The notes under the pieces: model-generated
Told to the model about the DNA's origin: nothing
The model's input: the letters and a program-made list of their open reading frames with translations, nothing else
Databases searched by the model: none
Source of the DNA: Niastella koreensis GR20-10
GTDB lineage: Bacteria; Bacteroidota; Bacteroidia; Chitinophagales; Chitinophagaceae
Direction of reading: 5' to 3'
NCBI RefSeq assembly: GCF_000246855.1
Contig: NC_016609.1
Span: 4,278,001-4,342,000 of the forward strand
Length of the DNA: 64,000 nt
Shown: piece after piece, positions 12,351 to 44,488 of the stretch
Layout: every line of letters begins with the position of its first letter
How positions within the stretch are numbered: position 1 is the first letter of the stretch
Made by a program: the position numbers and the translations under genes

Positions 12351-12491
12351 CAAATTAGCTAATTAGCAAATTAGATAATATGATAATGAAATACAGCTCA
12401 CGTGAGTGCTTCGCGTGAGCTGTATTAATTACAGAAGCTGACAGCTCTGTATTCCATTATCGAATTATCACATTATCAAATTATCACATTA
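12351..12491. repeat. word-repeat hairpin between operons
   Basis: The left arm is made of near-tandem AATTAGC/GATAATA words (12351-12388) and the right arm of ATTATCA/ATTATCG words (12455-12490). They surround a strong inner stem, AATACAGCTCACG with CGTGAGCTGTATT (12390-12426). The outer arms pair as GATAATG with CATTATC. The last TAA of the thioredoxin-like gene lies inside the right arm. It probably ends the SusCD operon transcript. Confidence 0.6.
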
Positions 12492-13949
12492 CGATTTTTC
12501 CACCATATCAATCATCGCACTTATTTCTTCCACCGCTGCTTCATTGGAACCGGTAAACCCGGTAACGCGGAAACGGATGTTCCCATTTTTATCGAGAATG
12601 AATTTGGTTGGGATGCCAGAGATGCCAAAGCTTTCCACTACATTGTTACTGCCGGTTTCGGGATCTTTCAGGTCCATCAGCACGCGGAAGGGATACTTGT
12701 TGTCATCGATATATTTCTTTGCGGCTGCCGTGGCGTCGCCTTCGCCTTTTTCCCAGGTATGAATAAACAGGAACTGCACATCAGGGTTGTCCTTGAATTT
12801 ATTCACGGCCATTTGCATGGCAGGGAACGAACGTTTGCAGGGACCACACCAGGTTGCCCAGAAATCGAGCACCACCACTTTGCCTTTCAGGCTTTCTGAA
12901 TTGACCGTATTACCATTTACATCCTTCAACACCCAGGCCGGTGATGGCTTGCTGATGATGGTGTTCTTCAGGTTATCGATCACTTTCTTGGTTATAGCGG
13001 CCTCCATTTCTTTCATGTACTCTGCATATGGCTTGCCACCGGCATTCAGCTTTTCGTATAAGGCCTTATGCATGTCTTTGAATTGCTTTTCTGCCTCGCC
13101 GGTTTGCACAAATTCATCGGCTTTTTCAAATGCTTCCTTGTCGCGGCCCAATGCCTGTAAGATCTCGGTATATGTATAATTCACCGAACCATTCATTCCT
13201 TCGGCATAGGCCTTTTGAATATATGTCAGGGCGCTGTCGTTCATTTTTTGTTTCAGAAAAATACGGGCAATGGAAGTACAATAGCCTCTATAACCCAAAG
13301 CAGCAAACTGCGCACCTTCTTCTTTTGAACGTATGGTTTTAAAAGCCCAGGCATTGTTCATTGCCTTTTTGAATAAGGGCAATGCTTCCGCTGTAAAGCC
13401 ATTCTTTTCCAGCCGCGATGCTGCCCCGGCCCAGGCCTCGCCTTTCCACGCCTGGGTCTGGCACAGATTGCTATAATATAACGCCTTCTTTACATTCTTT
13501 TCTTCGGCGAATGCGCTGGCTACGCTATTGGCAGCATAGTCGTATATAATTCTGCTGCCTTCAAATTTCTTCATGGGATATTGCTGAAGCCATTTGTTAT
13601 ACGCAGCCTCTTTTTCCGCTGCCGTGCCGGCATTATAAATGGCTTGCACATCTTCATTCCGCCAGATTTCGCCATTGGGAAAACGGTTTTTTATTACCGT
13701 AAGTAAAGAATCGGCAGTTGCTTTCTTTTTCATCACACTGAACATATTCATCGACAACACCCAGTCTTTTTCCTTATTGCTTTTTAACCCCTCATATAAT
13801 TTACCGGTTACCAATGCCCGGTCGGCCGCATCTTTTGAAGTGGCCAGCCGGTAATAATATTGACGGGTAGTGTCTTTATCGTCTTGTGCCTGTAAACTGC
13901 TTTGACTTAACGCAGCTATTACAACACCTACTATAATTTGCTTTTTCAT
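12489..13949 (-). CDS. TlpA-family thioredoxin-like protein of the SusCD operon
   Basis: This 486-residue protein has a signal peptide (KKQIIVGVVIAALSQSSLQAQ), so it is exported. Residues about 25-330 are a helical repeat domain with TPR-like segments (KALYYSNLCQTQAWKGEAW, SALTYIQKAYAEGM). Residues about 335-486 are a TlpA/ResA thioredoxin fold with DFWATWCGPCKRSFPAM (CxxC near 365), ISGIPTKFI (cis-proline) and a closing helix. Such proteins reduce disulfides in the periplasm and often accompany TonB receptors in Chitinophagaceae. It lies 52 bases after SusD and ends the five-gene sigma-FecR-SusC-SusD-TlpA unit. Confidence 0.85.
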   Translation of the reverse strand: MKKQIIVGVVIAALSQSSLQAQDDKDTTRQYYYRLATSKDAADRALVTGKLYEGLKSNKEKDWVLSMNMFSVMKKKATADSLLTVIKNRFPNGEIWRNEDVQAIYNAGTAAEKEAAYNKWLQQYPMKKFEGSRIIYDYAANSVASAFAEEKNVKKALYYSNLCQTQAWKGEAWAGAASRLEKNGFTAEALPLFKKAMNNAWAFKTIRSKEEGAQFAALGYRGYCTSIARIFLKQKMNDSALTYIQKAYAEGMNGSVNYTYTEILQALGRDKEAFEKADEFVQTGEAEKQFKDMHKALYEKLNAGGKPYAEYMKEMEAAITKKVIDNLKNTIISKPSPAWVLKDVNGNTVNSESLKGKVVVLDFWATWCGPCKRSFPAMQMAVNKFKDNPDVQFLFIHTWEKGEGDATAAAKKYIDDNKYPFRVLMDLKDPETGSNNVVESFGISGIPTKFILDKNGNIRFRVTGFTGSNEAAVEEISAMIDMVEKS

Positions 13950-14001
13950 TTGTCAAGATTTCCTTGTGTTAATGTATTGATCATTGTCTGTTGTCTATTG
14001 A

Positions 14002-15372
14002 CTAGTAGCCATCGTTTTGCGACAAATTGGTATTTGCCAGGCGTTGTGCATCGGGCACCGGGTACAATACGGCGGTATTTTTCCAGGTGGTCTTTTTTTG
14101 TCCGCCGATGACAGCGGCAGCACGATTGGTCCTTTTCAAATCGAACCAGCGATGGCCCCATTCGCCAAACAGTTCTACCTTTCGCTCCTGCTCTATGGCC
14201 AGCAGCATATCGTCTTTGCTTAGCGTGGCTAACAAACCGGTTAATCCGGCGCGGGTGCGCAGCACATCGATATCCGCTTTAGCCAACGGAAGTTTATCCT
14301 GTTGCGCCCTGGCTTCGCCCCTGATCAGGTACAGTTCGGCAAAACGCAACGCCACACTGTATTCATTACCTGTTGTACCACTTCTTAATTTGTATTTGGT
14401 TACCCGGTGATAGGTCACGCCACTTGCGGTGGTATCGGATGTCCAGTTGGTTTTACGCAGATCGCCTGTTTCAAATGACTTGTATAAGGTATCATACAGG
14501 CTATATGTCGGCAGGCTATTGGCGGCAGAATTATAATTGGCGCCATAGGTGCTGATACCGGTGGTATTGGTTATTTGCCAAATGATCTCATTACTGGTAT
14601 TTACAAAGGCGCTGGCCGGCGCCACTATGGTGTAAACTTTTGAATCGATCACTTTGGTAGCTTCTGCTTCGGCGTTGGGATAATCATAATTATATAAATA
14701 AGCCCTTGCCAGCAAACTAGTAGCGGCCCATTTATTAATACGTGCGCGGAAGCTGCCGGTATAGGTTTCCGGCAATAAGGATTGCGCGTCTTTCAGGTCA
14801 GCAATGATCTGAGTCCATACATCTTTGGCTGCAGTGCGGGGCAGATAAGCATTCTCATTATCATTATTACTGAGCGGCAAGGGCACATCGCCATAAAAAT
14901 TCACCAGCTCAAACAACACAAAGGCCCGCAGGAATTTTGCCTCGCCTAACAACTGGTTCTTTACCGATGGGGTAAGCGATGTTGACGCTGTTAAACCAAC
15001 TATGTCATAATTGATGTTCCGCAGGTATTGATAGGCATAATACCAGGCGTTGGCATTTATCGCATTATTTATTGAAACCGTATTGGTCTCAAACCCGTCG
15101 TAATCTGAACTGGGCGTATTGTATTGCACATCATCTGCCGACATACCGGGGTACATGGTATAGGGCACCAGCATCTGGGTAGCTACATTACCGGTATACA
15201 AGCCCATGATAGCGCTGGAACCTGTTATATCATTGGTGAACACATCACTGCTCAGCACCTGCGTGGGAGGCGCCCCTATTTCGGTGAACTTTTTACAGGA
15301 GGTCAGCAGCAGGGACAACGCCATGGCGATGGTCCCGGAATATAGTTGTATTGATCTGTTATTACGAATCAT
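14002..15372 (-). CDS. SusD/RagB-family nutrient-binding lipoprotein
   Basis: This 456-residue protein is counted from the ATG at 15372, which leaves a 12-base gap to SusC; an upstream ATG at 15396 would overlap it. The lipoprotein signal is LSLLLTSCKKF. The family features are the helical TPR core, GEAKFLRAFVLFELVNFYGDVPL, and the C-terminal ELFGEWGHRWFDLKRTNRA and AVLYPVPDAQRL. SusD proteins sit on the cell surface, cap the SusC barrel and bind substrate. The substrate is not evident, and with no glycosidase in the operon a peptide or glycan ligand is equally possible. Confidence 0.9.
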   Translation of the reverse strand: MIRNNRSIQLYSGTIAMALSLLLTSCKKFTEIGAPPTQVLSSDVFTNDITGSSAIMGLYTGNVATQMLVPYTMYPGMSADDVQYNTPSSDYDGFETNTVSINNAINANAWYYAYQYLRNINYDIVGLTASTSLTPSVKNQLLGEAKFLRAFVLFELVNFYGDVPLPLSNNDNENAYLPRTAAKDVWTQIIADLKDAQSLLPETYTGSFRARINKWAATSLLARAYLYNYDYPNAEAEATKVIDSKVYTIVAPASAFVNTSNEIIWQITNTTGISTYGANYNSAANSLPTYSLYDTLYKSFETGDLRKTNWTSDTTASGVTYHRVTKYKLRSGTTGNEYSVALRFAELYLIRGEARAQQDKLPLAKADIDVLRTRAGLTGLLATLSKDDMLLAIEQERKVELFGEWGHRWFDLKRTNRAAAVIGGQKKTTWKNTAVLYPVPDAQRLANTNLSQNDGY

Positions 15373-15383
15373 AGTCAGCAGTC

Positions 15384-18300
15384 TTAGAATGAACAATTAA
15401 TTCCAAACACAATCGTACGCAGTGGTGGCATTACCGCACCCAACGCACCATTACCTATACCTGCAGGACCGCCCTGGATGGTTGTTTCGGGATCGTACAG
15501 GTATTTGTTTTTGGAGAACAGGAATAAATTCTGTCCCTGTACAGAAACGGTACAATCGGACATCTTTAACCGTTTTATCCATGCCTTCGGAACCATGTAG
15601 GCAAGGCTGGCCGAACGTAGTTTTGCAAACGAGGCATCGCCCCAGGTAAGGTCGGAAGCGGAATAATTGAAATCGGATCCGGATGTTTTAAAAGCAGGAT
15701 ACATGGCCTCATCGCCGGCCTTCATCCAGCGATTCAGCACGGAGGTGTTTTGATTCGACAATCCACCAACCGGTACGGGTGAAGGGAACAGGTTGGTTCT
15801 GCCCTTTCGGTGATTGAATCGTAAGGTAAAGTCCAGCTGGAAATTCTTATAACTAACAGTGTTTGTCAACCCACCGTAATAAGGATTACCCATGGGCATT
15901 ACATAACGATCGCCGGCACTCGTAATGGAGCCGCTGCCATCTTTATCTTCATACTTAGCCACACCTGTAGTTGGATCTATACCCTGAAAATGATACAACT
16001 GTGCTACATTGACCGGCTTACCTACAATATAAGAAGATGCGTAAAAAGAATTTTCCAAACCAGGCCATTTCACCAGTTTATTCCGGTTGAATGTAACATT
16101 TAAAGCTGTTCTCCATTCCAGGTCTTTCGTTTTTATATTCGTGGTGCGCAGGTCCAGCTCAACCCCGGTATTGGTAATAACCGCTGGTATATTTACCGTT
16201 TTGGAATTGACACCCGTTTGTGTGGGCATTGCGATCGATGAGATCTGGTTGCCGGAGCGGGTTTGATAATAGTTCGCCGTTAACAGGATGCGGTCTCTTA
16301 AAAAGCCCAGGTCAATCCCAATATCATATTTCCTGCGCGATTCCCATTTAATATTATCATTCAGCAGCACCGGTTGCGGATTCAGGGTACCATTACCCAA
16401 TAATGGCGTACTGGCGTTATACAAATTCAGGTACAGGTAATTCGAGATCTGGTCGTTACCGGAGGTACCAATGCTTCCGCGCAGTTTTCCGAATGAAAGA
16501 ACAGAAAGGTTATTTCTTGCAAACGCTTCTTCAGAGAATACCCAGGCCGCGCCCACAGAACCGAAATTATTAAACCGGTTAGCCGGGGCAAAACGGGAAG
16601 AACCATCGCGCCGGAAATTGGCGTTTACAATATACCTGCCTTTGTAGTCGTAAGTTAACCGGCCAAAGCCTGCTGCATATTTATAGCGCTGCATGTTGTT
16701 GTAAAGAACCTGCAGTGTGCCGGCAGCCACCATACTACCCAACAATGCTTCACTGGAATAATTGCTTGCATAAATCGAATATCCATCTGCCGTATTACTT
16801 TGAAAGCTGGCGCCTGCCAACGCCGACAATTTACCTTCACCCAGCTTGCGGGTATAATCGATGGTAGGTTCTATGATGTAGTTACCTGCTTTATTGTCGG
16901 CAAAATAAGCATAGCTGCCACTCGTACTGGCTGGCGCATCTGAAGAATAGGGATTCGCTTTCTTCTGGTCCAGATCAGTTTTTGTATAACCGAGATTAGC
17001 TTTCAGGTTCAAACCCGGCAGTAACGTATACCGGAGGGTAAGATTCCCAATGAGGTTATCGCTGTTACCCTTATAGGTTTTCTTTAAACGGCCCAGCGGA
17101 TTGGTAAAACCACTGTACCAATATAAAGTACCATCCGGATTGTATAAAGGCAGGTTGGGTGGCAGGTTGTAGGCGGAAGAAATATCGTCCCATAATAAAT
17201 TGGTTACATCATTGGCATACGACACCATTACCCCGATATTGAACTTATTATCCAGGCTGGTGTGATCTGCGTTCAGACGGAAAGAAAGCCGTTTTGCTTC
17301 GTTATTACCGGGGAAAACGGTAGTTTCCCGATGATAAGCCGAATTAAATAAGAAGCGGGTGCCGCCAGATCCGCCAGAGATGGCAACCTGGGCATCGGTG
17401 GTGTGTGCAGTTCCACCAATCAGGAATTTTTGCCAGTCGGTGCCCTTGGTGGTGTCCCATACCATCAGATCGGGGGCATTGGCAGCGGTAGGTGTTTGAT
17501 TGCTGTTGGCAAATGCTTCGCGACGCATAGCCAGGTATTGCTGCAGGTTCAGCATGGGTATAAACCGCGATACCTTACCTGTTCCCTGGTAAAAACTGGC
17601 ATTCACGGCTGTTTTACCGGCCTTCCCTTTTTTGGTAGTGATGATGATCACGCCATTGGCGCCGCGTGACCCATAAATAGAAGTAGCATCGGCATCTTTC
17701 AACACATCAATACGTTCAATATCATTTGGGTTTATTAAACTAAACGGACTAACCCCGCCATTGGCGCCTGAGGTACCAAAGGCATTCAGGTTATCAGTAG
17801 CTGGTGAGCCGCCATTAAAATTGGTAAAGGGAACGCCATCGATAATAAACAATGGCACCTCGCCCTGTGACAACGAGCCCTGCCCCCTGATCTGAATTTT
17901 TACCGCACTGCCGGGCATGCCATTGTCCTGCGCTATAACAGCACCACTTATCCGGCCTGGTAAGGCTGCGAGCGGATTGGCCACCGGTTGTTTGGAAATA
18001 TCCTGCGAAGTAACAGAGCTTACCGCACCGGTGCTTTTTCTTAAAGAAGTGGTGCCATAGGCAATTACCACCGTTTCATCGAGCAATGATTTTTTGGCTT
18101 TCAGGAAAATGGGCTGCAGGCTGGCAGTCATTCCCGGAGATACTTTTATTTCCCTGGTCTCAAAGCCAACAAACGATATCACCAGGATGTCGCCTTCATT
18201 CGCATTAATAGAAAATAAACCCTGGTTATTGGTCATGCCGTTTATACCGGTGCCCTTGATAATAACCGTAGCACCATTTAACGGCGTGGCGTCATCCGCC

Positions 18301-18665
18301 ATAATGCGGCCCCTGACGGGATCACCATATAACTGATTGCCGGCCTGCCTTACCATTGGCGCCGGGGCCGGCCTGGGTTTTATAATAATGTACTTATTGT
18401 CTTCAATGGTGTAGGTGATAGCCTGGTTGCGAAAACAAAGATTGAGCACATCTGTAAGCGTGCTATTGGTAACCTGCATATCAACCGGCGTAGTTTTTTC
18501 CAGCATGGATTTACCATAGATAAATACATACCCGGTTTGCTTTTCAATTTCGCGGAACACCTGCGCCAGCGGCGCATGTTGCACCCTGATGGAAACATTC
18601 TGCGAAAATCCCCTTGCACTTACCTGTAAAAATGCAACAGTCAGAAAAATAAACGTCAGTTTCAT
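15384..18665 (-). CDS. SusC/RagA TonB-linked outer-membrane transporter with STN domain
   Basis: From the ATG at 18665 the protein has about 1093 residues: signal peptide (MKLTFIFLTVAFLQVSARG), STN domain (PLAQVFREIEKQTGYVFIYG), carboxypeptidase-like domain (VRGRIMADDATPLNGATVII), then the plug (VVIAYGTTSLRKSTGAVSS, LFIIDGVPFTN, ATSIYGSRGANGVIIIT) and barrel. The STN domain links it to sigma/FecR signalling. An upstream ATG at 18821 would add 52 residues, but that stretch (RRSFSEGGFAHHSTSEGG) is a translated palindromic repeat (18747-18802), so the shorter start is preferred. It imports the ligand captured by SusD using TonB energy. Confidence 0.9.
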   Translation of the reverse strand: MKLTFIFLTVAFLQVSARGFSQNVSIRVQHAPLAQVFREIEKQTGYVFIYGKSMLEKTTPVDMQVTNSTLTDVLNLCFRNQAITYTIEDNKYIIIKPRPAPAPMVRQAGNQLYGDPVRGRIMADDATPLNGATVIIKGTGINGMTNNQGLFSINANEGDILVISFVGFETREIKVSPGMTASLQPIFLKAKKSLLDETVVIAYGTTSLRKSTGAVSSVTSQDISKQPVANPLAALPGRISGAVIAQDNGMPGSAVKIQIRGQGSLSQGEVPLFIIDGVPFTNFNGGSPATDNLNAFGTSGANGGVSPFSLINPNDIERIDVLKDADATSIYGSRGANGVIIITTKKGKAGKTAVNASFYQGTGKVSRFIPMLNLQQYLAMRREAFANSNQTPTAANAPDLMVWDTTKGTDWQKFLIGGTAHTTDAQVAISGGSGGTRFLFNSAYHRETTVFPGNNEAKRLSFRLNADHTSLDNKFNIGVMVSYANDVTNLLWDDISSAYNLPPNLPLYNPDGTLYWYSGFTNPLGRLKKTYKGNSDNLIGNLTLRYTLLPGLNLKANLGYTKTDLDQKKANPYSSDAPASTSGSYAYFADNKAGNYIIEPTIDYTRKLGEGKLSALAGASFQSNTADGYSIYASNYSSEALLGSMVAAGTLQVLYNNMQRYKYAAGFGRLTYDYKGRYIVNANFRRDGSSRFAPANRFNNFGSVGAAWVFSEEAFARNNLSVLSFGKLRGSIGTSGNDQISNYLYLNLYNASTPLLGNGTLNPQPVLLNDNIKWESRRKYDIGIDLGFLRDRILLTANYYQTRSGNQISSIAMPTQTGVNSKTVNIPAVITNTGVELDLRTTNIKTKDLEWRTALNVTFNRNKLVKWPGLENSFYASSYIVGKPVNVAQLYHFQGIDPTTGVAKYEDKDGSGSITSAGDRYVMPMGNPYYGGLTNTVSYKNFQLDFTLRFNHRKGRTNLFPSPVPVGGLSNQNTSVLNRWMKAGDEAMYPAFKTSGSDFNYSASDLTWGDASFAKLRSASLAYMVPKAWIKRLKMSDCTVSVQGQNLFLFSKNKYLYDPETTIQGGPAGIGNGALGAVMPPLRTIVFGINCSF

Positions 18666-18746
18666 TACACACAAAAATTTTTTCCCTACTGAAAATTTTC
18701 TGGTTTTGAACCGGTGTCCCTTTTGGACTGGCCAACTTTTCTCATA

Positions 18747-18802
18747 CCCACCTTCGCTTGTGCTATGGTGAGCAAACCCGCCTTCGCTGAAGCTACGGCG
18801 GG
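18747..18802. repeat. two copies of a short palindromic repeat
   Basis: Unit 1 (18747-18772) is CCCACCTTCGCT then GCTATGGTGAG; unit 2 (18777-18802) is CCCGCCTTCGCTGAAGC then TACGGCGGG. Both fold as CC(A/G)CC...GG(T/C)GG stems sharing CCTTCGCT. They lie in the FecR-SusC gap, inside a possible N-terminal extension of SusC that reads SFSEGG, a peptide that recurs wherever this repeat is translated. Confidence 0.55.
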
Positions 18803-18832
18803 TAACAGCAGTTTTTTGCATACTTTTGCCTT

Positions 18833-18955
18833 GGTTTGAGTGAATAAATATCCATTCCCGTTCGATCGCTATCGAGGGATGGCTATAGTCGTCGCAGACT
18901 ATTCAATTATGTTACTCAAACCTGTCAGCCAGCAATGTTCGCAGCATCGCTGGCT
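18833..18955. other. structured FecR-SusC intergenic region
   Basis: GGTTTGAGT (near 18834) and ACTCAAACC (ending 18922) are perfect inverted 9-mers about 70 bases apart, with further GAATA/TATTC pairing inside. A separate stem AGCCAGC / GCTGGCT (18927-18955) adjoins the end of fecR. On the transcribed (minus) strand that stem lacks a following T tract, so it is more likely a stability or processing element between fecR and susC than a terminator. Confidence 0.4.
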
Positions 18956-18981
18956 TTTTTGTTTAAGTAACTTTCATTTCT

Positions 18982-20274: not shown

Positions 20275-20348
20275 AACATTGATTTAGGCATCATTCTTTG
20301 GTAAGATGCAGCTATTGGAAAAACGTACTATTGAAAAAGAAATAATTG

Positions 20349-20924: not shown

Positions 20925-21204
20925 TATAGTTCTCAGTTCTCAGTTCAAAAGTTTAAAGGTCAAGGTCTTCAGCTTCTGGTTAATAGTATGGAGTCAGTGT
21001 TTCTATGCGAAAGTTATTAAGTTCTTAGATTCTGAGTTTATTAGTTTTTAGTTTGTTAGTTTAAGGTTCAGAGTTCTCTGTTCCTGGTTCTATGTTCTGA
21101 ATTTCTGGTTACGGCTTTTCTACTTCTACATTCGATATTCAATATTCGATATTTCTTTCTCCCTTCCTAATTTCTCTGTTTCTAATTTTTCATTTTTAAT
21201 TTCC
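20925..21204. repeat. intergenic low-complexity word repeats
   Basis: This 280-base gap is built of recurring words: TTCTCAGTTC near 20935, GTTCTTAGATTCTGAGTT around 21020, TTCAGAGTTCTCTGTTCCTGGTTC around 21070, and ACATTCGATATTCAATATTCGATATT at 21129-21154. The last word and the preceding CTTCTAC also occur at 35429-35470, and in the opposite direction near 43966-44000. No gene is visible. The sigma-gene promoter must lie in or beside it. Confidence 0.55.
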
Positions 21205-26864: not shown

Positions 26865-26951
26865 TATACGCTGAATGCTTAATGCTCCTGACGTTTTGCG
26901 CTCCGCGTTGGACGTTTGAGTTATATTTTGGTTTTGCGTTTAGCGTTTAGC

Positions 26952-27956: not shown

Positions 27957-27985
27957 TATTCGTTGTTTCTTAACTGTTAAAAGCA

Positions 27986-28059
27986 GTTACAGGTTTCAGG
28001 TTGCAGGTTTCAGGGGGAAGGCCGTAAAATTGTATTCCCTGTACCCTGAAACTTGTAAC
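27986..28059. repeat. word-repeat hairpin (CAGGTTTCAGG)
   Basis: GTTACAGGTTTCAGG, continuing TTGCAGGTTTCAGG, faces CCTGAAACTTGTAAC (28045-28059); 14 of 15 arm bases pair. It lies between the acetyltransferase gene end and the fecR start. No T tract follows, so simple termination is not obvious. Confidence 0.55.
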
Positions 28060-28070
28060 ATCTAATTACT

Positions 28071-28620: not shown

Positions 28621-28800
28621 AGCTTAAGGCTTAACGCTTGCTCGCGTACAGACTGCCTGGCCTTCGTGCCGAACCTTCGCGAATTTTCGGAAAACAAGGC
28701 GGCCTGGCCGTTTCGGAGTTTTGCATTCAGCGTTAAGCATTTTGCGTTAAGCGTTTTTAAAGGAAGGCTGACCTTAGGCCAGCCCCCTTGTTTTCAGGCA
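28621..28800. repeat. word-repeat hairpin (GCGTTAAGC)
   Basis: The left arm AGCTTAAGGCTTAACGCTTG (28621-28640) faces CAGCGTTAAGCATTTTGCG and TTAAGCG (28728-28753), which are inverted copies of the same word. About 80 bases of unrelated sequence lie between. A separate stem GGCTG/CAGCC lies at 28765-28783, near the receptor's 3' end and the likely terminator of that gene. Confidence 0.55.
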
Positions 28801-28802
28801 AT

Positions 28803-31517: not shown

Positions 31518-31766
31518 GTGACTGATGTTAATGATGGTTTACAATTAAATGCAAGCTCGCATCAAAAATCACCGCGCGGGTTATTAGTTAAGAGGAGGTC
31601 ACGTGAGAAATTACCCCATGAAGAAGATAGAATTTAAGATATTTATTTTTTGAATATAAAATATTCAGAGTTCCGGGTTCAGAGTTCAGCGTTTTTTCCG
31701 CGACGGCGTGTGGCGCGAAGCGGTGTATTGCCTGCAGCTTACAGCCTGAAGCTTGAAGCTGCCTTC
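31518..31766. repeat. intergenic region with word repeats
   Basis: This 249-base gap is upstream of the receptor gene. TTCAGAGTTCCGGGTTCAGAGTTCAGCG (from about 31664) and CAGCTTACAGCCTGAAGCTTGAAGCTGCC (about 31736-31764) are near-tandem words. The latter resembles GCAGCTTCAAGCTGCAAGC at 36565-36582 in inverted direction. No gene is seen; the receptor promoter should be in the left half. Confidence 0.45.
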
Positions 31767-33364: not shown

Positions 33365-33370
33365 AGTTGT

Positions 33371-33835: not shown

Positions 33836-33836
33836 A

Positions 33837-34157: not shown

Positions 34158-34160
34158 TGT

Positions 34161-34203: not shown

Positions 34204-34222
34204 CAATTATTTTTTTAATTTG

Positions 34223-34840: not shown

Positions 34841-35010
34841 GAGCCCTGTAATTTAATAACAAATTGCACGCTGGTAACATTTGGATTATACATATGTGTG
34901 TAACTGAACAATTTATTCCCCCAAAATCCTGCTTTAGCCCATCCAATTCCAGGTTTATCTTCTTTTTGTTATTGTATTCCGTTGAAACTCAGGAATTGAT
35001 TAGCTTAGTA

Positions 35011-35092
35011 AGACAAAGGTTAAAGGTAAAAGCCTAAAGCCCAAAGTCCCCGGTATTTGCTTTCAGCTTTAACCTTTAGGCTTTCAGCTGTA
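35011..35092. repeat. word-repeat hairpin (AAAGCCTAAAG)
   Basis: AGGTTAAAGG and AAAGCCTAAAGCCCAAAG on the left face GCTTTCAGCTTTAACC and TTTAGGCTTTCAGC on the right, with ccccgg in the middle. It ends a few bases before the MoaD-like ATG, so it forms that gene's leader. Confidence 0.55.
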
Positions 35093-35096
35093 TTCT

Positions 35097-35369: not shown

Positions 35370-35371
35370 CG

Positions 35372-35470
35372 CAATGTTGAATGTCCAATATCCAATAATG
35401 AATGTTGAAGTAAATACAATCGCGTCTTTCACTTCTACATTCAATATTCAACATTCAATATTCAATATTA
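35372..35470. repeat. word-repeat hairpin (TTCAATATTC family)
   Basis: AATGTTGAATGTCCAATATCC and AATGAATGTTGAAGTAAATAC face CACTTCTACATTC, AATATTCAACATTCAATATT and CAATATT. The CTTCTACATTC-AATATTC arrangement recurs at 21120-21154 and, inverted, at 43966-44005. It fills nearly the entire gap between two genes that are presumably co-transcribed. Confidence 0.6.
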
Positions 35471-35475
35471 GCTAT

Positions 35476-36558: not shown

Positions 36559-36742
36559 AAGGCAGCTTCAAGCTGCAAGCCATAAGCTATAAGCCAATAC
36601 ACCGCTTCGCGGCAAACCCAACAAAGAACATAGAACTGAGAACGTTGAACCTGGAACTTTTTCCCCTTTATCAACGCTATCAACTATGTCAACCCTATCA
36701 ACTCGAATCCCTGGTCAACTCGTCAACTGATCAACTGGTTAA
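36559..36742. repeat. intergenic word repeats
   Basis: This gap contains GGCAGCTTCAAGCTGCAAGC and TAAGCTATAAGC (36561-36594), then GAACATAGAACTGAGAACGTTGAACCTGGAAC, then at least five (A/G)TCAACT words (36683-36741). The SnoaL-like gene on the other strand ends at its right edge. Confidence 0.5.
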
Positions 36743-37141: not shown

Positions 37142-37303
37142 GGTTCAAAGGTAGTATTGCGGACAGGGGCGCTGGTAACGCGCCCGGCTCAGAAAATTAT
37201 TCTTTTAGCTCAACCCTGAGTGTGAAGCAGTTATAAAATTCTTTAAAAAATTTTTACAAAAAGCGTAGGGTGGCGCTATCATTTGGGTACATATATAAAT
37301 AGT

Positions 37304-38515
37304 ATGGACAAGCAAGCATTTCTCAGGATGTTGGATAAGTACCAGGATGGCTCTGCCAGTTCTGCGGAAAAAACATTGATTGAAGAATATTACCGCCGGT
37401 TGGAACTGGCAGGTAAAACTGAACTATCAGCAGAAGAAGAAATCGCGTTAAGACAGGCGATGTATAAAAATATAACTGCCGGCATGGTAGAACGGGATAC
37501 CCCGGTTGTTCCTATCAGAAGAAAAAACTATAGCCTGGCGGCAGCAGCAGCGGCATTATTACTGGTGCTCGGCGCAGGTAGTTATTACTGGTTATTTAAA
37601 GAACATACCACGCAGCCGGGCAATAACAAACTGGCAAAAGCCAAACACCACGACCTGCCACCGGGGCGGGATGCCGCTACGCTTACACTGGCCGATGGAC
37701 GCACCATTGTGCTGGACTCGGCCAGCGGAACCATCTCCAAACAGGGTGGCGCAACCGTAATCAATCTGAACGGTCAGGTTTCTTATGCAAAGGCAGGCGA
37801 CAAAAACGAACAGGCGCCGGTTGTATATAATACCATTACCACGGCACGTGGCAATCAGTATCAGCTCATATTGGCCGACGGATCAAAAGTATGGTTGAAC
37901 TCGGCCAGTTCGCTGCGCTTCCCTACCGCTTTCACCGGCGACAAACGCGAAGTGGAACTGGATGGTGAAGGATATTTTGAAGTAGTAAAGAATGCCGCCA
38001 AACCATTTCATGTTAAAACAAGCGCCCAGGATATTGAAGTACTGGGCACGCACTTTAACGTGAATGCATATAAAGATGAAGAGACGATAAAGACGACTTT
38101 GTTGGAGGGAAGAGTAAAGGTGAATTCGGCAATTCCCGACAAGTCGGGACGGGCAGGCAATCCCCGACAAGCCGGGGCAGGCTGGCAATCGGCAATTTTA
38201 AAACCGGGAGAACAGTCCTCCGTATCTCAATCATCGCAAACATCCCAAACAATCTCAGTTCAGACAGTTGATATAGACCAGGTAATGGCCTGGAAGAATG
38301 GCTGGTTTGAATTTGATAATACAGATATTAAAACCATTATGCGCCAAATAAGCCGCTGGTATGATGTTGATGTTCGTTATGAAATGAAACCCGATAACGA
38401 AACATATGGCGGCCGTATAAGTCGTAACCTGAATCTTTCCAACATTCTTAAGATGTTAGAGACTTATGGTGTTCATTATAGGCTGGAAAATAAAACATTG
38501 GTAGTAGTCAAATAA
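37304..38515 (+). CDS. FecR-family anti-sigma factor
   Basis: This 403-residue protein starts at ATG 37304; an upstream TTG at 37283 is less likely. It has a cytoplasmic part (KYQDGSASSAEKTLIEEYY), a membrane span (YSLAAAAAALLLVLGAGSYYW), a FecR domain (TTARGNQYQLILADGSKVWLN, FTGDKREVELDGEGYFEVV, TSAQDIEVLGTHFNVNAY) and an STN-like end (IKTIMRQISRWYDVDV). It carries the same 89-base repeat block as the FecR gene at 18982-20274. It precedes the SusC/SusD pair by 384 bases. No adjacent sigma gene, but ECF genes lie at 34223-34840 and 44489-45064. Confidence 0.88.
   Translation: MDKQAFLRMLDKYQDGSASSAEKTLIEEYYRRLELAGKTELSAEEEIALRQAMYKNITAGMVERDTPVVPIRRKNYSLAAAAAALLLVLGAGSYYWLFKEHTTQPGNNKLAKAKHHDLPPGRDAATLTLADGRTIVLDSASGTISKQGGATVINLNGQVSYAKAGDKNEQAPVVYNTITTARGNQYQLILADGSKVWLNSASSLRFPTAFTGDKREVELDGEGYFEVVKNAAKPFHVKTSAQDIEVLGTHFNVNAYKDEETIKTTLLEGRVKVNSAIPDKSGRAGNPRQAGAGWQSAILKPGEQSSVSQSSQTSQTISVQTVDIDQVMAWKNGWFEFDNTDIKTIMRQISRWYDVDVRYEMKPDNETYGGRISRNLNLSNILKMLETYGVHYRLENKTLVVVK
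38117..38205 (+). repeat. in-frame palindromic repeat inside fecR (copy 2)
   Basis: Identical to the complement of 19337-19425 over 89 bases. It has nested stems CCCGACAAGTCGGG and CCCCGACAAGCCGGGG. It begins two codons after LLEGRV and ends in LKP of the conserved LKPGEQ, adding roughly 25 residues relative to the FecR protein at 26952-27956, which reads QKGKVRFSVPAGNAATIM there. Confidence 0.75.
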
Positions 38516-38899
38516 AAGAACTGATGTAGATACCCGGACACTAAGGACGACGAACAAGCAATACAATTTGGCAATAAGCAGAAGGTTGTGCGAACCCCGA
38601 TTCATCGGGGAGGGTTGCAAGGGGTTTAACAATTGAGAGAACAGTGCATCAATCAACAACTATCAGGCATATATAATGCAGTCATTGTACTTCCCGAAGC
38701 TATTGCCAGTTGTAGTTGCCGGTTTAAATGAAGAGGCATGCGTCCAGGGATTAGTCTCGAATAAAAGCCCGGTAACAGGTAACTGGTAACCGGTAACAAA
38801 TAAAAAGCCGCTTCGTGGCCAGACGAAACGGCGGTGTTCAGTAATTATAAACAAGTCTGTTGAGGAATCATCTATTTAATCACCAAACCAAACAAAGTT
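38516..38899. repeat. FecR-SusC gap with palindromes and tandem GGTAACN
   Basis: This 384-base gap has no gene. It includes CCCCGATTCATCGGGG (38595-38610, a perfect palindrome around TC) and four successive GGTAACN units (38771-38797). A further stem GCCGCTTCGTG/AACGGCGG lies around 38806-38833. The gap is long for one operon, so SusC may have its own promoter here. Confidence 0.5.
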
Positions 38900-41800
38900 A
38901 TGCAAATAACTGCTATAATCCGTTTACGTAGATATACAAACGGGTTAATCTCCTGGTATGCCAGCCAGGAAATGCACAAACTGCTTAAGGTCATGAAGTT
39001 AACATCATTTCTCTTATTCGTCACATGCTTGCATGCAGCTGCCCATACCAGTGGGCAAACTGTAACCCTGTCGCTTAAGAACGTGCCGGTGCAAAAGGTG
39101 TTCAAGGCCGTTTCAAGGCAAACCGGCGTATCGATCGTGTATTGTGAAAACCTGTTTGAAGGGCTCGAACCCGTTACTATAAGCGTAAAGAACGCTACCA
39201 TAAAAGATGTACTGCAGCAATGCCTCACCGGCGCCCCGTTTGACTATAACGTACAGGGCAATACGGTAGTGATCAGGAAGAAATCTGCAGTAGAAATAAA
39301 AGGCGATATCAATACGCCGCCACCCCCACCCGTTCCCATAAAAGGTAAAATTGTAAACGACAAAGGCGAACCCATCGCCGGCGCCAACGTACAGGTAAAA
39401 GGTACAAAAAAAGGCACCAGCACCAACCCGGATGGTGAATTCACCATCGATGCAGATAAAGGCGATGTGCTTATCATTACAAACATTGGCTATGCTGCCC
39501 GGCAAATAACCCTTACCGATACAAAATCATTAAACATTACACTCACAGTAAACTCACAACAACTGGGTGAACTGGTTGTAACCGCCCTGGGTATTCAACG
39601 CCGCCAAAAAAGTTTAACGTACAGCACTACCAAAGTAAATAACGCCGAACTGACCACGGTAAAGAACATGAACCCCATCAACAGCCTGAATGGTAAAGTA
39701 CCGGGGTTACAGATCAACCCAAGTTCCTCCGGTATGGGCGGTTCTGTTCGCGTGATCCTGCGTGGGCAAAAATCAACGCGGGAGAACCAGCCGTTGTATG
39801 TAATTGACGGGGTACCGCTTACCAACTTCTCTACCGCACAACCTCAAAACCTGTGGGGCGAAAGTGGTGGCGTAAACACGCCTGGCCGCGATGCGGGTGA
39901 TGTGCTCAGCTCGCTGAACCCGGAAGATATTGAAAGCATGACCGTGCTGAAAGGCGCCTCTGCCGCCGCCCTGTACGGTAGCCAGGCCGGTAATGGTGTA
40001 ATTATGATCACTACTAAAAAAGGCCGCTCCGGTATGGCTAAAGTAGATTTCTCTACTGCCGTTACTTTTGAGCGCCCTATGTACACGCCAGATCTGCAGT
40101 ACAACTTTAACCAAACCAATGCCGACAATATTTACAGCTGGGGCCCTGCCGGTTCAAACCCCAACCACGTAAAGGATTTCTTTAAAACGGGTAAAACCTT
40201 TATCAACACCATTGCGTTTACTGCAGGTAACGAAAAAGCGCAAACCTATTTTTCGTACAGCAATACCAATAACACGGGTATAATGCCCACCAATGAATTC
40301 AAACAACATACTTTCAACTTCCGTCAAACTTCCAAGTTCTTTAACGACAAGTTGAATGTTGATGCGAATATCATTTTCAGCACCCAGAAAACAAATAACC
40401 GCCCTGCATCGGGTTTGTATTACAACCCGCTTACCGGTTTGTACCTGTTTCCCCGGGGGCTCGACTTCAACAACTACAAGAATAACTTTGAATACTTCTC
40501 GCCCACCCGTATCATGAATTTGCAAAACTGGTGGAATATAAACCCCGATAAAGATCTGGGCGGCGCCGATAACCAGCAAAACCCTTACTGGGTGCTGAAC
40601 CGCGATGTAAACCTGGGCAAAAAAGACAACCTGTTTGCTTCATTAACCCTGAAGTACCCCATCACCAAATGGTTAAGTGTTCAGGCGCGTGGTAGTATGA
40701 ACCGCAATTACGACAATTACGAATTACACGCCAATGCCAGTACCCAGATAACGCTGGCCGACTACAATGGCCGCTTTACCTACGACAGGTTAGAACGCAC
40801 CTTGTTGTATGGGGATGTAATTCTTTCGGGTAATTTACATCTTACCGATAAGATCGGGTTCAACTTCAATGCCGGTAGCAGCATCAATGATCAAAAGCAG
40901 GACCGCACCTATATAGATTCAAAAGGCGCCGACCTGGCTTATGCCAATATATTTACATTGGGTAACCTGAACCTCAGTCCGGCCCTGATGGTGCAGCCAA
41001 CCGGTTTACGCCGCCAGGTACAGTCGGTATTTGCAACCGGTACATTCGATTATGATGAAAAAGTTTACCTGGATCTTACCGCACGTAACGATTGGTCATC
41101 AACCCTGGCTTACACGCCAAAAGCAAAAAGCGGCTATCCTTATTTCTCAGCCGGTATCAATACCATCATCAGCGAACTGGCGCATTTGCCGCAATTCATC
41201 AACTACAGTAAAGTACGTTTGTCCTTTGCCAAAGTGGGTAACGACGTAGAGCCATTCTCAACCAACCCTACCAATACCATTCAATCGGGCAACGTACAAA
41301 CAGTTCAGGCCAGCCCTTATATGGGAGCATACCTGAAACCTGAAGACGCCCGTTCTTTTGAAATAGGAACCGAATGGAAATTCCTGAATAACCGGTTAAG
41401 TCTGGATTTCACCTGGTATAAGACCAATACCAAAAACCAGTATTTTGATTTCGCCGCACCCCGTGGCAGCGGCTACTCCCGCTTCTTTGTAAATGCCGGT
41501 AACATCCAGAACCAGGGTATTGAGGCCATGATCGGTTATGATGTGCTGAACAAAGGAGATGTAAAATGGAATACCAGTGTAAACTTTACCCGCAACCGTA
41601 ACAAGATCGTGCAACTGTTGCCAGAACTGGGCGGCATGTACGAGCTCACACTCGCCGGCGTGAACAGCTATTCGCTTCGCATTCGCGAAGGAGGTTCCTA
41701 TGGCGATATTTACGGTATCAAATTCCTGCGTGCACCGGATGGTTCCATTGTAGTGGATGATAAAGGAAAGCCACAGGCGAACGGTTTTGGATTTGTTGGT

Positions 41801-42325
41801 AACCCCACCCCCAACTTCCTCGCCGGCTGGAACAACTCGGTTGAATATAAGAACTTTGTTATATCGGCGCTTATCGATGGCCGCTTTGGTGGTAAGGTGA
41901 TGAGCATTACCCAGGCGGTACTGGATGAATACGGCGTATCGAAAGTAACAGCGGATGCCCGTAACAACGGCGGCGTTCACATTCCTGCTACCATGCTGAA
42001 TGGTTCTAAATGGAGTGGCGCCATCCCTGCTGATGTTTTCTATACAACCGTGGGTGGCCGTGCAGGGATCTCTGAATATTACATGTACGATGCCACCAAC
42101 ATCAGATTGCGTGAACTATCAGTGGGTTACAAACTGCCCTCAAAGTCAACAATTATAAAGGATATGCGCCTTTCACTGGTAGCACGCAATCTTTTCTTTA
42201 TTAAAAAAGAAGCGCCTTACGATCCTGAGTTAAGTATGAGCACCGGTAACGGGTTACAGGGTATAGACGTATTCTCCCTGCCATCTACCCGTAGTATGGG
42301 GTTAAGCTTTAGATGTTCCTTTTAA
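38900..42325 (+). CDS. SusC/RagA TonB-linked outer-membrane transporter with STN domain
   Basis: This 1141-residue protein has a signal region (VMKLTSFLLFVTCLHAAAHT), STN (PVQKVFKAVSRQTGVSIVYC), carboxypeptidase-like domain (VPIKGKIVNDKGEPIAGANV), plug (LVVTALGIQRRQKSLTYST, LYVIDGVPLTN, AAALYGSQAGNGVIMIT) and barrel ending RSMGLSFRCSF. In-frame ATGs at 38972 and 38993 are alternative starts; only the last gives an unextended signal peptide. With the SusD at 42357-43958 and the FecR upstream it forms a signal-responsive uptake system. The ligand is not evident. Confidence 0.9.
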   Translation: MQITAIIRLRRYTNGLISWYASQEMHKLLKVMKLTSFLLFVTCLHAAAHTSGQTVTLSLKNVPVQKVFKAVSRQTGVSIVYCENLFEGLEPVTISVKNATIKDVLQQCLTGAPFDYNVQGNTVVIRKKSAVEIKGDINTPPPPPVPIKGKIVNDKGEPIAGANVQVKGTKKGTSTNPDGEFTIDADKGDVLIITNIGYAARQITLTDTKSLNITLTVNSQQLGELVVTALGIQRRQKSLTYSTTKVNNAELTTVKNMNPINSLNGKVPGLQINPSSSGMGGSVRVILRGQKSTRENQPLYVIDGVPLTNFSTAQPQNLWGESGGVNTPGRDAGDVLSSLNPEDIESMTVLKGASAAALYGSQAGNGVIMITTKKGRSGMAKVDFSTAVTFERPMYTPDLQYNFNQTNADNIYSWGPAGSNPNHVKDFFKTGKTFINTIAFTAGNEKAQTYFSYSNTNNTGIMPTNEFKQHTFNFRQTSKFFNDKLNVDANIIFSTQKTNNRPASGLYYNPLTGLYLFPRGLDFNNYKNNFEYFSPTRIMNLQNWWNINPDKDLGGADNQQNPYWVLNRDVNLGKKDNLFASLTLKYPITKWLSVQARGSMNRNYDNYELHANASTQITLADYNGRFTYDRLERTLLYGDVILSGNLHLTDKIGFNFNAGSSINDQKQDRTYIDSKGADLAYANIFTLGNLNLSPALMVQPTGLRRQVQSVFATGTFDYDEKVYLDLTARNDWSSTLAYTPKAKSGYPYFSAGINTIISELAHLPQFINYSKVRLSFAKVGNDVEPFSTNPTNTIQSGNVQTVQASPYMGAYLKPEDARSFEIGTEWKFLNNRLSLDFTWYKTNTKNQYFDFAAPRGSGYSRFFVNAGNIQNQGIEAMIGYDVLNKGDVKWNTSVNFTRNRNKIVQLLPELGGMYELTLAGVNSYSLRIREGGSYGDIYGIKFLRAPDGSIVVDDKGKPQANGFGFVGNPTPNFLAGWNNSVEYKNFVISALIDGRFGGKVMSITQAVLDEYGVSKVTADARNNGGVHIPATMLNGSKWSGAIPADVFYTTVGGRAGISEYYMYDATNIRLRELSVGYKLPSKSTIIKDMRLSLVARNLFFIKKEAPYDPELSMSTGNGLQGIDVFSLPSTRSMGLSFRCSF

Positions 42326-42356
42326 TGATATAAAGAAACAGCAAAAAAATACGACA

Positions 42357-43958
42357 ATGAACAAACAACATAAATATCTCCTTTATATAACAACAGCAAC
42401 TATATTAACTAGTGGTTGTACCAAAAACTTCGAGGACTATAACAAGAATCCTTACGGCGCCAGCAACGACGATCTGTTGCCAGACTATGGCCTGGTGGTG
42501 GGTCAGTTGAAGGAAGCGGAACGTTCCATTTATGTGTATCAGCCAGCCTGGGTTACCCAGCTGCAGCAGAACCTGATGGGCGATGTGTTCGGTGGTTACA
42601 TGATGTCGCCTACCCCATTCCGTGGCAACAGCAACAACATGAACTACGACCTGGTTGACGGCTGGAACCTGTATGCCCTGAACCCGGCTTACAGCAGTCC
42701 CGAGGCCAGTGTGATGGCCCCGTTGGCGAACGTGGAATCAATCACCAAAACCCCGGCGCCGGATTTATACGCCATGGCCAAGATCCTGAAGGTAGAAGCC
42801 ATGCACCGCGTGAGCGATATTTTCGGCCCCATTATGTACTCGAAATATAAAGTGCGCGCTGAAGATGGGGGTTATGATTACGACTCGCAACAGGATGCCT
42901 ATAGTAATTTCTTTAAAGACCTGAACGAAGCCATTACCATTCTTACGCCGCTTCGCACCCAGAAGCCTACGCCCACGTTTGTTAATGCCGACCTGGTATA
43001 CAAAGGTGATTATGGGAAATGGCTGCAGTTTGCCAACTCATTGCGTTTGCGCCTGGCCCTGCGTATTGTGAAAGCCGATGCCGCCAAAGCAAAAACGGAA
43101 GGCGAAGCTGCCCTGGCCAATGCCGGTGGCTTATTAAGCAAAGCCGATGATAATTTCAGTATTGATATTGGCGCTACCGTTCACCCGTTGAACACCATCA
43201 GCGGCGCCTGGGGCGATATTCGTATGGGTGCGCCCATGGAATCGATCCTGAAAGGGTACAATGACCCACGCCTGCCCAAATACTTTATACCGGCTGTAGA
43301 CTCCGCTGTGTTGCACCAGTTCAAAGGCATTCGCAATGGTATCGACATAGACGCCAAAACCCGGTACCAGGGCTATTCCGCGCTGGTTGACCTGCCCAGT
43401 AAGCTGCAATTGATGACCGCTGCCGAAGCCTGGTTCCTGAAAGCAGAAGCCGCAACACGCGGATGGGCAAACGCCGGTACCGCCAAAGACGATTATGAAT
43501 CTGGTATTACTACTTCATTTACCCAATATGGGTTGAATGCCAGCACATATATCAACGACGCCGTAAGCACACCGGCAGAATACATCGATCCCAAAGCCAT
43601 TACAGCCGGCCAGAACGATATCAAGACCGGCAGCCAATGGCTGAGCACCATTACCATTAAATGGAATGACGCCGATGCATTTGAAACAAAACTGGAAAGG
43701 ATCATTACGCAGAAATGGATTTGTGTTTTCCCTGACGGACAGGAAGCCTGGAGCGAGTTTCGCAGAACGGGTTATCCCAAACTGTTCCCGGTAGTGATTA
43801 ACAACAGTGCCGGTAAAATTTCCACTACCGTGTTTGTTCGCCGCATCAACATTCCACCCGATGAGTATTTAACCAATCCCAAAGGGGTTGAAAGAGCCAT
43901 CAAAACCCTGAAGGGACCTGATAATGGCGGAACGCGTTTATGGTGGGATGTACAATAA
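42357..43958 (+). CDS. SusD-family (SusD-like 2) lipoprotein
   Basis: This 533-residue lipoprotein (signal LLYITTATILTSGCTKNF, Cys about 21) opens with ENYNKNP-type FEDYNKNPYG, as in the SusD-like 2 subgroup. It has the helical core (LYAMAKILKVEAMHRVSDIFGP, MTAAEAWFLKAEAATRGW) and an ending with ITQKWICVFPDGQEAWSEFRRTGYP. It follows SusC by 31 bases. It would bind the substrate at the cell surface and deliver it to SusC. No degradative enzyme is in the unit. Confidence 0.9.
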   Translation: MNKQHKYLLYITTATILTSGCTKNFEDYNKNPYGASNDDLLPDYGLVVGQLKEAERSIYVYQPAWVTQLQQNLMGDVFGGYMMSPTPFRGNSNNMNYDLVDGWNLYALNPAYSSPEASVMAPLANVESITKTPAPDLYAMAKILKVEAMHRVSDIFGPIMYSKYKVRAEDGGYDYDSQQDAYSNFFKDLNEAITILTPLRTQKPTPTFVNADLVYKGDYGKWLQFANSLRLRLALRIVKADAAKAKTEGEAALANAGGLLSKADDNFSIDIGATVHPLNTISGAWGDIRMGAPMESILKGYNDPRLPKYFIPAVDSAVLHQFKGIRNGIDIDAKTRYQGYSALVDLPSKLQLMTAAEAWFLKAEAATRGWANAGTAKDDYESGITTSFTQYGLNASTYINDAVSTPAEYIDPKAITAGQNDIKTGSQWLSTITIKWNDADAFETKLERIITQKWICVFPDGQEAWSEFRRTGYPKLFPVVINNSAGKISTTVFVRRINIPPDEYLTNPKGVERAIKTLKGPDNGGTRLWWDVQ

Positions 43959-44488
43959 AAATATCGAATAATGAATATTGAATGATGCATGTAGAAGTGA
44001 ATACAGATAAATAAAATAGGTTTTTACTTCGATATCCGACATTCTTCGGTTCAATATTCAACATTTTTAGAGATAGCAACACCCCGGCGGTTGAGAACAT
44101 TGCAACCTATCGATCGTCGAGGGTACGGACAGAAAGACCTTAAGGGGAGTTCTTTTATGTCCATCTGCAGATTTCTATTGAACCTCCCGTAAACAACAAC
44201 GGGAAGAAGCTTCTGTGAAAGCCGGGTGCAAAAGAATAAAAGGGTTTGAAGAAGGTCTCTCTTATTCGATGCTGATGTCTATCCCCGGCTTCCCGGAAGC
44301 AAAGAGTTAAAGGAGTAAAAGAGTTTGAAGAAGGTCTCTTTTGCTCCTTTCTCTTTTATAATGACCTACATAAGTCCCTCACTTTCATAAAATAGCTAAT
44401 ATAAATAACTCTTTCTTGCAGATTTTGCAGTTTTCTGCTTCAAACTCTTCCTCGCAGGTTAATTTTGTCTTAACTTTCAGGGAAGAAC
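43959..44488. repeat. 530-base gap with two kinds of repeat hairpins
   Basis: 43966-44067 is the TTCAATATTC/CTTCTACAT family (left arm AATAATGAATATTGAATGATG, right arm TTCAATATTCAACATT). At 44242-44260 and 44321-44339 the 19-mer G(G/A)GTTTGAAGAAGGTCTCT is repeated, each copy inside a hairpin; the second has arms AAAGGAGTAAAAGAG and CTCTTTTGCTCCTTT (44309-44350, 14 of 15 pairing). Between 44100 and 44230 there is other apparent secondary structure (CCCGT/ACGGG) but no recognisable riboswitch. Confidence 0.5.

Follow-up and report, generated by a model that had tools for sequence, protein, structure and literature searches.

The window analysed here is a 64,000-base stretch of Niastella koreensis GR20-10 (bases 4278001-4342000 of one contig of 9,033,684 bases), in which genes for GNAT, SusC-like, SusD-like and ECF sigma proteins, among others, are separated by gaps that often carry arrays of short, imperfectly repeated words. 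In its full form, such an element consists of a tandem array of a degenerate word of 7 or 8 nucleotides (nt), a variable centre that is sometimes bounded by AATACA...TGTATT, and a second, inverted array drawn from that word family; GTTAACAA is an example of a word array. A first-pass annotation of this DNA had described nine gaps as a word followed by its own inverted copies. When the left arm was compared with the reverse complement of the right arm at each place (300 letter shuffles, arm limits set by eye), this description stood at six of them: no shuffle was as good at 12351, 27986, 28621, 35011 and 35372, and p was 0.007 at 43966-44066. At 31664-31764, by contrast, same-word inverted arms were not confirmed (p 0.16), a GTTCAGA-type array on the left facing an AAGCTTC-type array on the right, and the three arrays at 36559-36742 are made of differing words (pairwise inverted p 0.05, 0.99 and 0.07). 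For three further arrays, at 20925-21204, testing of two pairs gave no inverted match (p 0.97 and 0.79), and 44102-44356 contains no array.

Arrays of this kind are far more frequent than chance would provide. Autocorrelation was scanned in 240 gaps from 21 stretches (464 kilobases, kb), with 20 dinucleotide shuffles as the control; because genes were called by a simple longest-open-reading-frame rule, gap edges are approximate. A score of at least 20/28 was reached by 25 gaps at period 7 and by 26 at period 8, against 0.0 and 0.05 expected, so that shuffled gaps give almost none; equally many such structures in shuffled DNA, an outcome that the first-pass annotation had named as refuting, did not arise. 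Across the periods scanned (4-16), the only other excesses, smaller or harmonic, were at 9, 11, 13 and 14-16. At a threshold of 18/28, 58 of the 240 gaps have a period-7 or period-8 array, which by length scaling would correspond to about 1,100 array gaps genome-wide, and a looser threshold applied without a shuffle control gave 213 arrays in 134 of 462 gaps (864 kb). Of these 213 arrays, 20 have the motif AATACA at their inner edge (5.1 expected).

Neighbouring arrays are paired in a specific orientation: among 79 adjacent pairs, 26 were inverted complements (score of at least 28) compared with 5.3 under random same-period pairing, and direct copies numbered 1 compared with 2.1. We extended this to relatives of N. 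koreensis (G000), sampled as 20-kb stretches, not whole genomes, and compared at the level of species and DNA sequence. These included N. vici (G001), N. caeni (G003), N. soli (G004), N. populi (G005) and N. yeongjuensis (G009), along with Longitalea arenae and Longitalea luteola (G006 and G007), which belong to the same GTDB genus as Niastella. Across eight species, 867 gaps yielded 242 adjacent array pairs and 87 inverted hairpins (score of at least 24). RNA folding of 84 of these hairpins, with a median length of 117 nt, gave a mean z of -5.2 (z < -3 in 69), as opposed to -1.8 for 168 other gaps (z < -3 in 50). We read the hairpins as short non-coding palindromic intergenic elements with many sequence families and one anatomy; this anatomy, like the word cores, the polarity, the position and the turnover at orthologous gaps, is a direct observation.

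Several gaps display variations around this anatomy. The N. populi ortholog of L010:10825-10955 (L100/L101) is a 384-nt gap in which many AATACAG pieces alternate with words of AAGC type, a pattern that gives the inner AATACA motif the look of a joint. Apparent ordinary terminator hairpins lie inside inverted word arrays at L009:4487-4631, L010:4423-4622 and L017:5665-5814, and terminators may thus form the centre of some elements. Two long gaps (L006:14424-14842 and L010:14125-14929) are filled with units, each about 25-30 nt long and built around AATCCTGGGATT or TTCCTTCCGGG palindromes, which by eye are another type of repeat than the word hairpins.

Word stock and exchange at orthologous gaps

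The first-pass annotation had proposed a different word at most loci, which is wrong as stated: the words come from a stock of roughly twenty degenerate types that is re-used across the genome and the genus, and are not private to a locus. The figure of twenty is a reading by eye, since the seeds were hand-picked, some of them overlapping, and the profiles from several further seeds were blurred. A set of 566 arrays, in which one stretch may be counted at both periods, gave position profiles with cores such as GTT[AG]AC[AGT][AG], G[AC]TAAT[GT][TAC] and GTT[ACT][TG]T[ATG][AG] at period 8, along with [GCA]AAT[GA][TG][TC], GTTT[GA]T[GTA] and G[TC][GC]AGT[AG]. Within each core, three or four positions reach at least 0.93, with others near 0.5. 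Ten families, of 29-57 arrays each, were tested for whether variation in held-out species falls in the three predicted positions. It did so in 273/377, 201/293 and 169/272 cases for the three period-8 families (chance 0.38), and in 221/392, 220/356, 216/293, 148/311, 202/393, 107/188 and 168/237 cases for the remaining seven (chance 0.43), the prediction being weak for the GGCAATA (148/311) and GAAGTAG (202/393) sets. The constant positions would resemble a recognised motif, while the variable ones look free.

Orthologous gaps were located by search in up to seven relatives for four blocks, namely the window and L010, L053 and L017, the latter three picked for array richness. An array was present in some species in 51 of 75 such gaps (eight species), yet at least one species lacked it in 46 of these 51, and 37 of the 45 gaps with arrays in at least two species included a pair with different words. 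Over 951 species-pair comparisons, 328 had no array, 331 had one in a single species, 188 had different words and 104 the same word; "different" denotes an alignment score below 24, so strongly diverged copies of one word are also counted there. Unrelated array gaps shared a word in only 15 of 152 cases. The same word is therefore commoner at orthologous than at unrelated gaps but frequently differs or is absent, which indicates that words are partly inherited and often exchanged or lost. Among congeners, words change while flanks stay, and identical words differing by ordinary point divergence, the other outcome named as refuting in the first-pass annotation, are mostly not what is seen. Array-bearing gaps were longer than their array-less counterparts by a median of 85 nt, and longer in 272 of the 331 pairs. 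For N. koreensis and N. yeongjuensis, 30 gaps had no array, 18 had one in a single species, 10 had the same word and 8 had different words.

Individual gaps illustrate this turnover. At 27957-28070, GTTTCAG words occur in N. koreensis and N. yeongjuensis, GTTTGTG words in N. soli, N. caeni and N. populi, and GTTATTCA in L. arenae, while a further relative (G002) has 15 empty bases. The gap at L017:9642 measures 17, 16 and 22 bases in N. koreensis, N. yeongjuensis and N. soli; G002 has a CAATTG hairpin there, and N. caeni an array of AGGCAAC words. Word replacement beside the same gene in sister species suggests an ongoing process of insertion and replacement.

Position and polarity at gene ends

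The 54 hairpins located between codirectional genes start a median of 1.5 nt past the stop codon, and 40 of them lie nearer to the stop. Arrays were found in 32 of 78 convergent gaps, 85 of 283 codirectional gaps and 17 of 101 divergent gaps. For arrays within 40 nt of a stop codon, the sense strand was G-rich in 221 of 265 cases, compared with a G-rich to C-rich ratio of 187:176 beside stops in array-free gaps. Arrays beside a start were C-rich in 84 of 107 cases, as were array-free gaps (323:159). Hence, the G-rich bias at stops is specific to arrays, whereas the C-rich bias at starts is largely background. Consistent with this polarity, the left arms of the 87 hairpins were G-rich in 75 cases and C-rich in 7, with 5 ties. 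Since the words directly after stops are G- or purine-rich on the sense strand, transcription would give hairpins at the 3' ends of mRNAs and between the genes of an operon.

Two simple roles were considered and set aside. As intrinsic terminators, the hairpins should end in a T-run, but one was found at the outer edge of 5 of 87, compared with 13% at random places, i.e. no excess. A cassette of stops in all frames, as the basis for periods 7 and 8, would be a modest effect at most: inward-reading stop triplets had a frequency of 0.093 (shuffles 0.086), 86 of 174 arms contained stops in every frame (shuffles 51.6), and families whose inward words carry no stop are left unexplained. In the whole window, the only Rfam match at gathering score was a tRNA.

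A hairpin after the stop codon could also be needed as such, for 3'-end protection, as operon punctuation or as a ribosome brake, with selection keeping structure and position while the word itself is replaceable. Stop-codon position, sense-strand polarity, preference for convergent gaps and strong folding all fit this explanation, as does the finding that E. coli REPs less than 16 nt from a stop codon lower translation (PMC12306157; here and below, published systems are compared as described in the available parts of the cited sources). We nevertheless regard it as unlikely, because the array is present in one species only in 331 of the 951 comparisons and in neither in 328, because a T-run accompanies only 5 of 87 hairpins, and because it leaves the shared word stock unexplained.

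Bacterial intergenic heptamer repeats are usually ascribed to polymerase slippage, and the arrays might accordingly be ordinary long simple sequence repeats and nothing more. In the majority of genomes, long simple repeats most often have a unit of seven (Mrazek 2007, per PMC4679880), and a GTT-heptamer pattern was detected in 166 of 296 Bacteroidota genomes, although this crude count covers GTT heptamers and their mirror only, includes repeats inside genes, and found the mirror control to be frequent as well. Slippage alone, however, yields neither inverted pairs nor a stop-codon position with strand polarity, and neither word cores held in common across species nor an exchange of stock words at one site, which makes this account most improbable.

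Proposed spread of the elements, and related repeats

The reading we favour, to which we give roughly an even chance, is that the hairpins are a many-word relative of the Xanthomonas GGGAATC inverted repeats, i.e. dispersed, non-autonomous elements with a REP- or MITE-like spread. They would disperse as units from a genus-wide stock of word families through a factor acting in trans, with insertion at gene 3' ends being tolerated or favoured, and the arrays would then lengthen or shorten in 7- or 8-nt steps through slippage. The arms play the part of inverted ends. There are elements that match one another as whole units including the centre, such as L013:17987-18104 and the window element at 12267 (86% over 113 nt) or L053:8048 and L053:9709 (85% over 112), with several further matches of 71-81% over 90-100 nt; dispersal of units thus does occur. 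A kinship with REP or MITE families, from which the first-pass annotation had set these structures apart, is accordingly plausible. A query that contained the 35372 element yielded 54-55 matches in each of N. koreensis, N. caeni and N. populi, 22 in G002 and 1-5 in each of the remaining six genomes. Partial hits, the match due to the flanking genes and the two strands of a single palindrome are all counted here, and in the richest genomes scoring was confined to the best 38 candidates. One hairpin searched against plasmids and another against phages gave no match.

Several observations weigh against dispersal. Near-identical recent copies were not found: array-to-array matches of at least 50 nt peak at 70-80%, with 1 of 178 reaching 90%, and for a stretch with five array gaps, matches of at least 50 nt elsewhere in the genome reach at most 88% (92-93% at 37-44 nt). 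Centres are mostly unshared: a centre hit of any kind was obtained for 35 of 134 array gaps, and part of these hits are words that escaped masking. A mobilising enzyme was not identified, the Y1 transposase being the candidate examined, and a clean target-site duplication was not established, with one possible 6-nt case by eye. In addition, a hairpin's own arms are slightly closer to each other than to same-family arms of other hairpins (17.5 vs 16.8 matches of 20; 54 hairpins, Wilcoxon p 0.0008). Finally, array-less orthologs are slightly richer in the sister's word than other gaps are (9.7 vs 8.8 matches of 12; 58 pairs). These figures are from a repeat made because flanking coding letters could inflate the excess, which persisted, also in the 44 pairs lacking any weak periodicity (9.5 vs 8.8 of 12, p 0.0003). 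This indicates a partial contribution of array loss and decay or of local seeding, although the excess is weak.

The latter two observations would be expected if each element were generated in place, with slippage on a local word and subsequent hairpin priming or template switching producing both the array and its inverted copy. Units of 7 or 8 nt, differing array copy numbers and the large excess of inverted pairs over random pairing also agree with such a process. Yet one stock of words, variable at the same positions throughout, is common to loci and species, 52% of same-family arms from other hairpins match as well as the true partner or better, and in some sister gaps of 16-22 nt, including L017:9642, the word is untraceable by eye. 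In 32 of 54 hairpins the own arm pair scored higher than the other arms did on average, and a comparison of raw scores ranked the own partner first in 6 of 35 hairpins (7.1 expected). That one arm was recently templated by the other is thus not supported as a strong effect, the equally good match of so many other arms leaving no strong sign of recent hairpin priming. On this balance, in-place generation is rather unlikely, and the first-pass preference for a generative process over dispersal is weakly supported at best, by the slightly closer arms, while the shared stock and the equal match of other arms speak against it. About as unlikely, in our view, is a copying machinery that would write and rewrite 3'-end arrays from the roughly twenty 7- or 8-nt word types, the invariant core of each being read by a dedicated protein or RNA, such that the anatomy is inherited and the word exchanged.

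A possible mover is the Y1 (HUH) transposase that the genus carries in single copy, a RAYT-type relative of TnpA-Y1 subclass 1.2, by which the elements would be mobilised in the manner of REPs or REPINs. Each of 10 genus genomes has one strong match with an open frame, and the nine proteins aligned are 142 amino acids long and bear the DHMH and Y---Q--HH signature described for subclass 1.2 (PMC6006769). In N. koreensis the gene is of subclass 1.2 type and lies at L092:1435-1863 on the minus strand, near genome position 5,623,000. By eye, a word hairpin lies just upstream in eight of the nine loci read (G000-G007 but not G009; G008 fell outside), and among 295 other Bacteroidota genomes at least 5 pattern hits were found in 92 of 132 with a relative of this protein compared with 52 of 163 without. 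Phylogeny and genome size confound this correlation, however, and 27 genomes with at least 20 pattern hits have no relative at E <= 1e-10, 11 of them having no PF01797 match of any kind. Of 19 loci in other genomes, 18 were read; an upstream array scored 18-19/28 in two only (L148 and L156), and none of the 18 had a paired word hairpin by eye, many having ordinary short palindromes instead. The latter are not described for subclass 1.2 in the available part of PMC6006769. The 11 genomes without PF01797 led us to reject this transposase as a necessary mover; a helper role is conceivable, but that it moves the elements is very unlikely.

The closest known system is that of the Xanthomonas GGGAATC repeats (2015, PMC4692102), heptamer arrays in which some positions are fixed and others vary (GGGANTN) and which form inverted pairs in 70 and 75 cases, lie near stops on the sense strand, are rare between divergent genes, and vary in length and sequence between species at the same gap. 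The Niastella elements share the fixed and variable positions of the heptamers, the inverted pairs at stops, the G-rich sense strand and the rarity in divergent gaps. Where one word type is described for Xanthomonas, however, Niastella has about twenty, at periods 7 and 8, with whole words exchanged between sister species; and while the Xanthomonas word forms G-quadruplexes, the Niastella consensus words have no GGG core and, judged by sequence, mostly lack G-runs. TAACTGA heptamers of Beggiatoaceae, Cyanobacteria and some Bacteroidetes (MacGregor 2015, PMC4679880) are likewise intergenic and patchy in Bacteroidetes, and other heptamer arrays occur in gaps of Gramella, Aequorivita and Elizabethkingia, with close relatives of the first two having no obvious sets. 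TAACTGA repeats are direct repeats of one word, located mostly just before start codons in their main genome, and neither an inverted-pair anatomy nor word exchange is described in the available part of that report.

REP, BIME and REPIN sequences also comprise many palindromic extragenic copies, some near stops. REPs are palindromes of 20-40 bp with a GTAG or CGTC foot and RAYT transposases (PMC3733652, PMC6006769, PMC12306157), whereas the Niastella hairpins of about 117 nt are built of tandem words, no GTAG or CGTC foot was among the 25 best enriched 6-mers at the outer flanks of the 213 arrays, and in place of a single family consensus there are many word types, with only some elements matching as units. 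A Porphyromonas gingivalis MITE with an internal minisatellite (PMC4596501) is similar, by description only, in being a short element of Bacteroidota with a tandem repeat inside. Relative to these systems as described in the sources available, what is new is the many-word variant with word exchange, heptamer inverted repeats at stops being already known from Xanthomonas. A description of multi-word hairpins with exchangeable words was not found in the open literature, subscription papers being mostly outside this search. With the same anatomy, fixed cores and variable positions at the same gene ends in eight species of one GTDB genus (one named Longitalea), and with exchangeable words, the origin of intergenic heptamers becomes testable in a cultivable soil bacterium, and repeat families may be recognised by anatomy where sequence search finds little.

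Features of the window

Coordinates of arrays and arms in the window are collected in Table 1, including three places outside the first-pass list.

Table 1. Word arrays, arms and centres in the window (positions count from its first base).
Position	Strand	Feature	Evidence	Remark
12351..12394	+	Left arm, period 8, AATTAGC / GATAATG type	Score 22/28; inverted match 0/300 shuffles	
12395..12451	.	Centre, AATACAGCTCACG...CGTGAGCTGTATT hairpin	92% over 52 with L009:12073; centre match 90% over 51	Common to L013:17987 and L009:12073
12452..12491	-	Right arm, period 8, inverted copy of AATTAGC / GATAATG type	Score 24/28; inverted-arm test	
13975..14012	-	Single short period-7 array CATTGTCTGTTGTCTATTG	Score 18/28	Outside first-pass list
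20925..20985	+	GTTCTCA-type array, period 7	Score 20/28	Without inverted partner
21005..21110	+	Array of GTT-type words, period 8 turning into 7	Score 21/28 at period 8	
21115..21168	-	TTCGATA/TTCAATA-type array, period 7	Score 20/28	Without inverted partner there
26869..26950	.	Hairpin-like pair by eye, GCTGAATGCTTAATGC ... GCGTTTAGCGTTTAGC	Right-hand array 20/28	Outside first-pass list; similar words in N. caeni and N. populi orthologs, absent in G002
27984..28014	+	Left arm GTTACAG/GTTTCAG, period 7	Score 21/28; inverted match 0/300 shuffles	
28036..28060	-	Right arm, GTTACAG/GTTTCAG word type	Inverted-arm test	
28621..28641	+	Left arm, GCTTAAC type	Inverted-arm test	Probably the 5' leader of a minus-strand GNAT gene
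28721..28757	-	Right arm, GTTAAGC type	Score 18/28; inverted-arm test	
31664..31693	+	GTTCAGA-type array	Inverted p 0.16	Faces array of another word
31731..31765	-	AAGCTTC/AAGCTGC-type array	Array score; inverted-arm test	N. yeongjuensis and N. soli orthologs with other words
35013..35052	+	Left arm, AAAGGTT/AAAGCCT type, period 7	Score 22/28; inverted-arm test	
35062..35092	-	Right arm, AAAGGTT/AAAGCCT word type	Score 19/28; inverted-arm test	
35372..35410	+	Left arm, GAATGTT/GAATATC type, period 7	Inverted match 0/300 shuffles	Element (35372-35470) absent from same gap in N. soli (genes abut) and G002
35437..35470	-	Right arm, TTCAATA/TTCAACA	Inverted-arm test	
36563..36596	+	AAGCTGC-type array	Score 20/28	
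36621..36658	-	GAAC-type array (other strand GTTCTCA)	Score 20/28	
36664..36742	-	GTCAACTN / ATCAACNN-type array, period 8	Score 21/28	
38760..38805	+	Short GGTAACA/GGTAACT array	Score 22/28	Outside first-pass list
43966..44013	+	Left arm, GAATATT type	Score 20/28; inverted-arm test	Directly after stop codon of SusD-like gene
44030..44066	-	Right arm, TTCAATA type	Inverted p 0.007	

Other structures lie among these arrays. The SusC-like gene has in its leader (about 38790-38840) a stem-loop, GCCGCTTCGTGGCCAGACGAAACGGCGG, that is kept in seven of seven species, while the surrounding word arrays differ. The structured stretch at 44102-44356, flanked by the SusD-like gene and, at 44489, the ECF sigma gene, is conserved in all six species aligned and is predicted to be a conserved structured RNA, for which no Rfam family was found at gathering score. 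Its stem-loops have repeated loops (GTTTGAAGAAGG twice, CCTTAAGGGGAG once), and 8 of its 74 predicted pairs show changes on both sides among the six species. Records with an exact core pattern from this stretch number 11 in the genome collection, and 8 of them are Niastella or Longitalea.

Towards the start of the window, 5187-5445 is 96% identical over 259 nt to L068:15305-15561 elsewhere in the genome, and 6712-7762 matches L068 and L014 at 96% over 83 and 56 nt, with a tRNA beside it at 7484-7567; this region is perhaps a mobile island.

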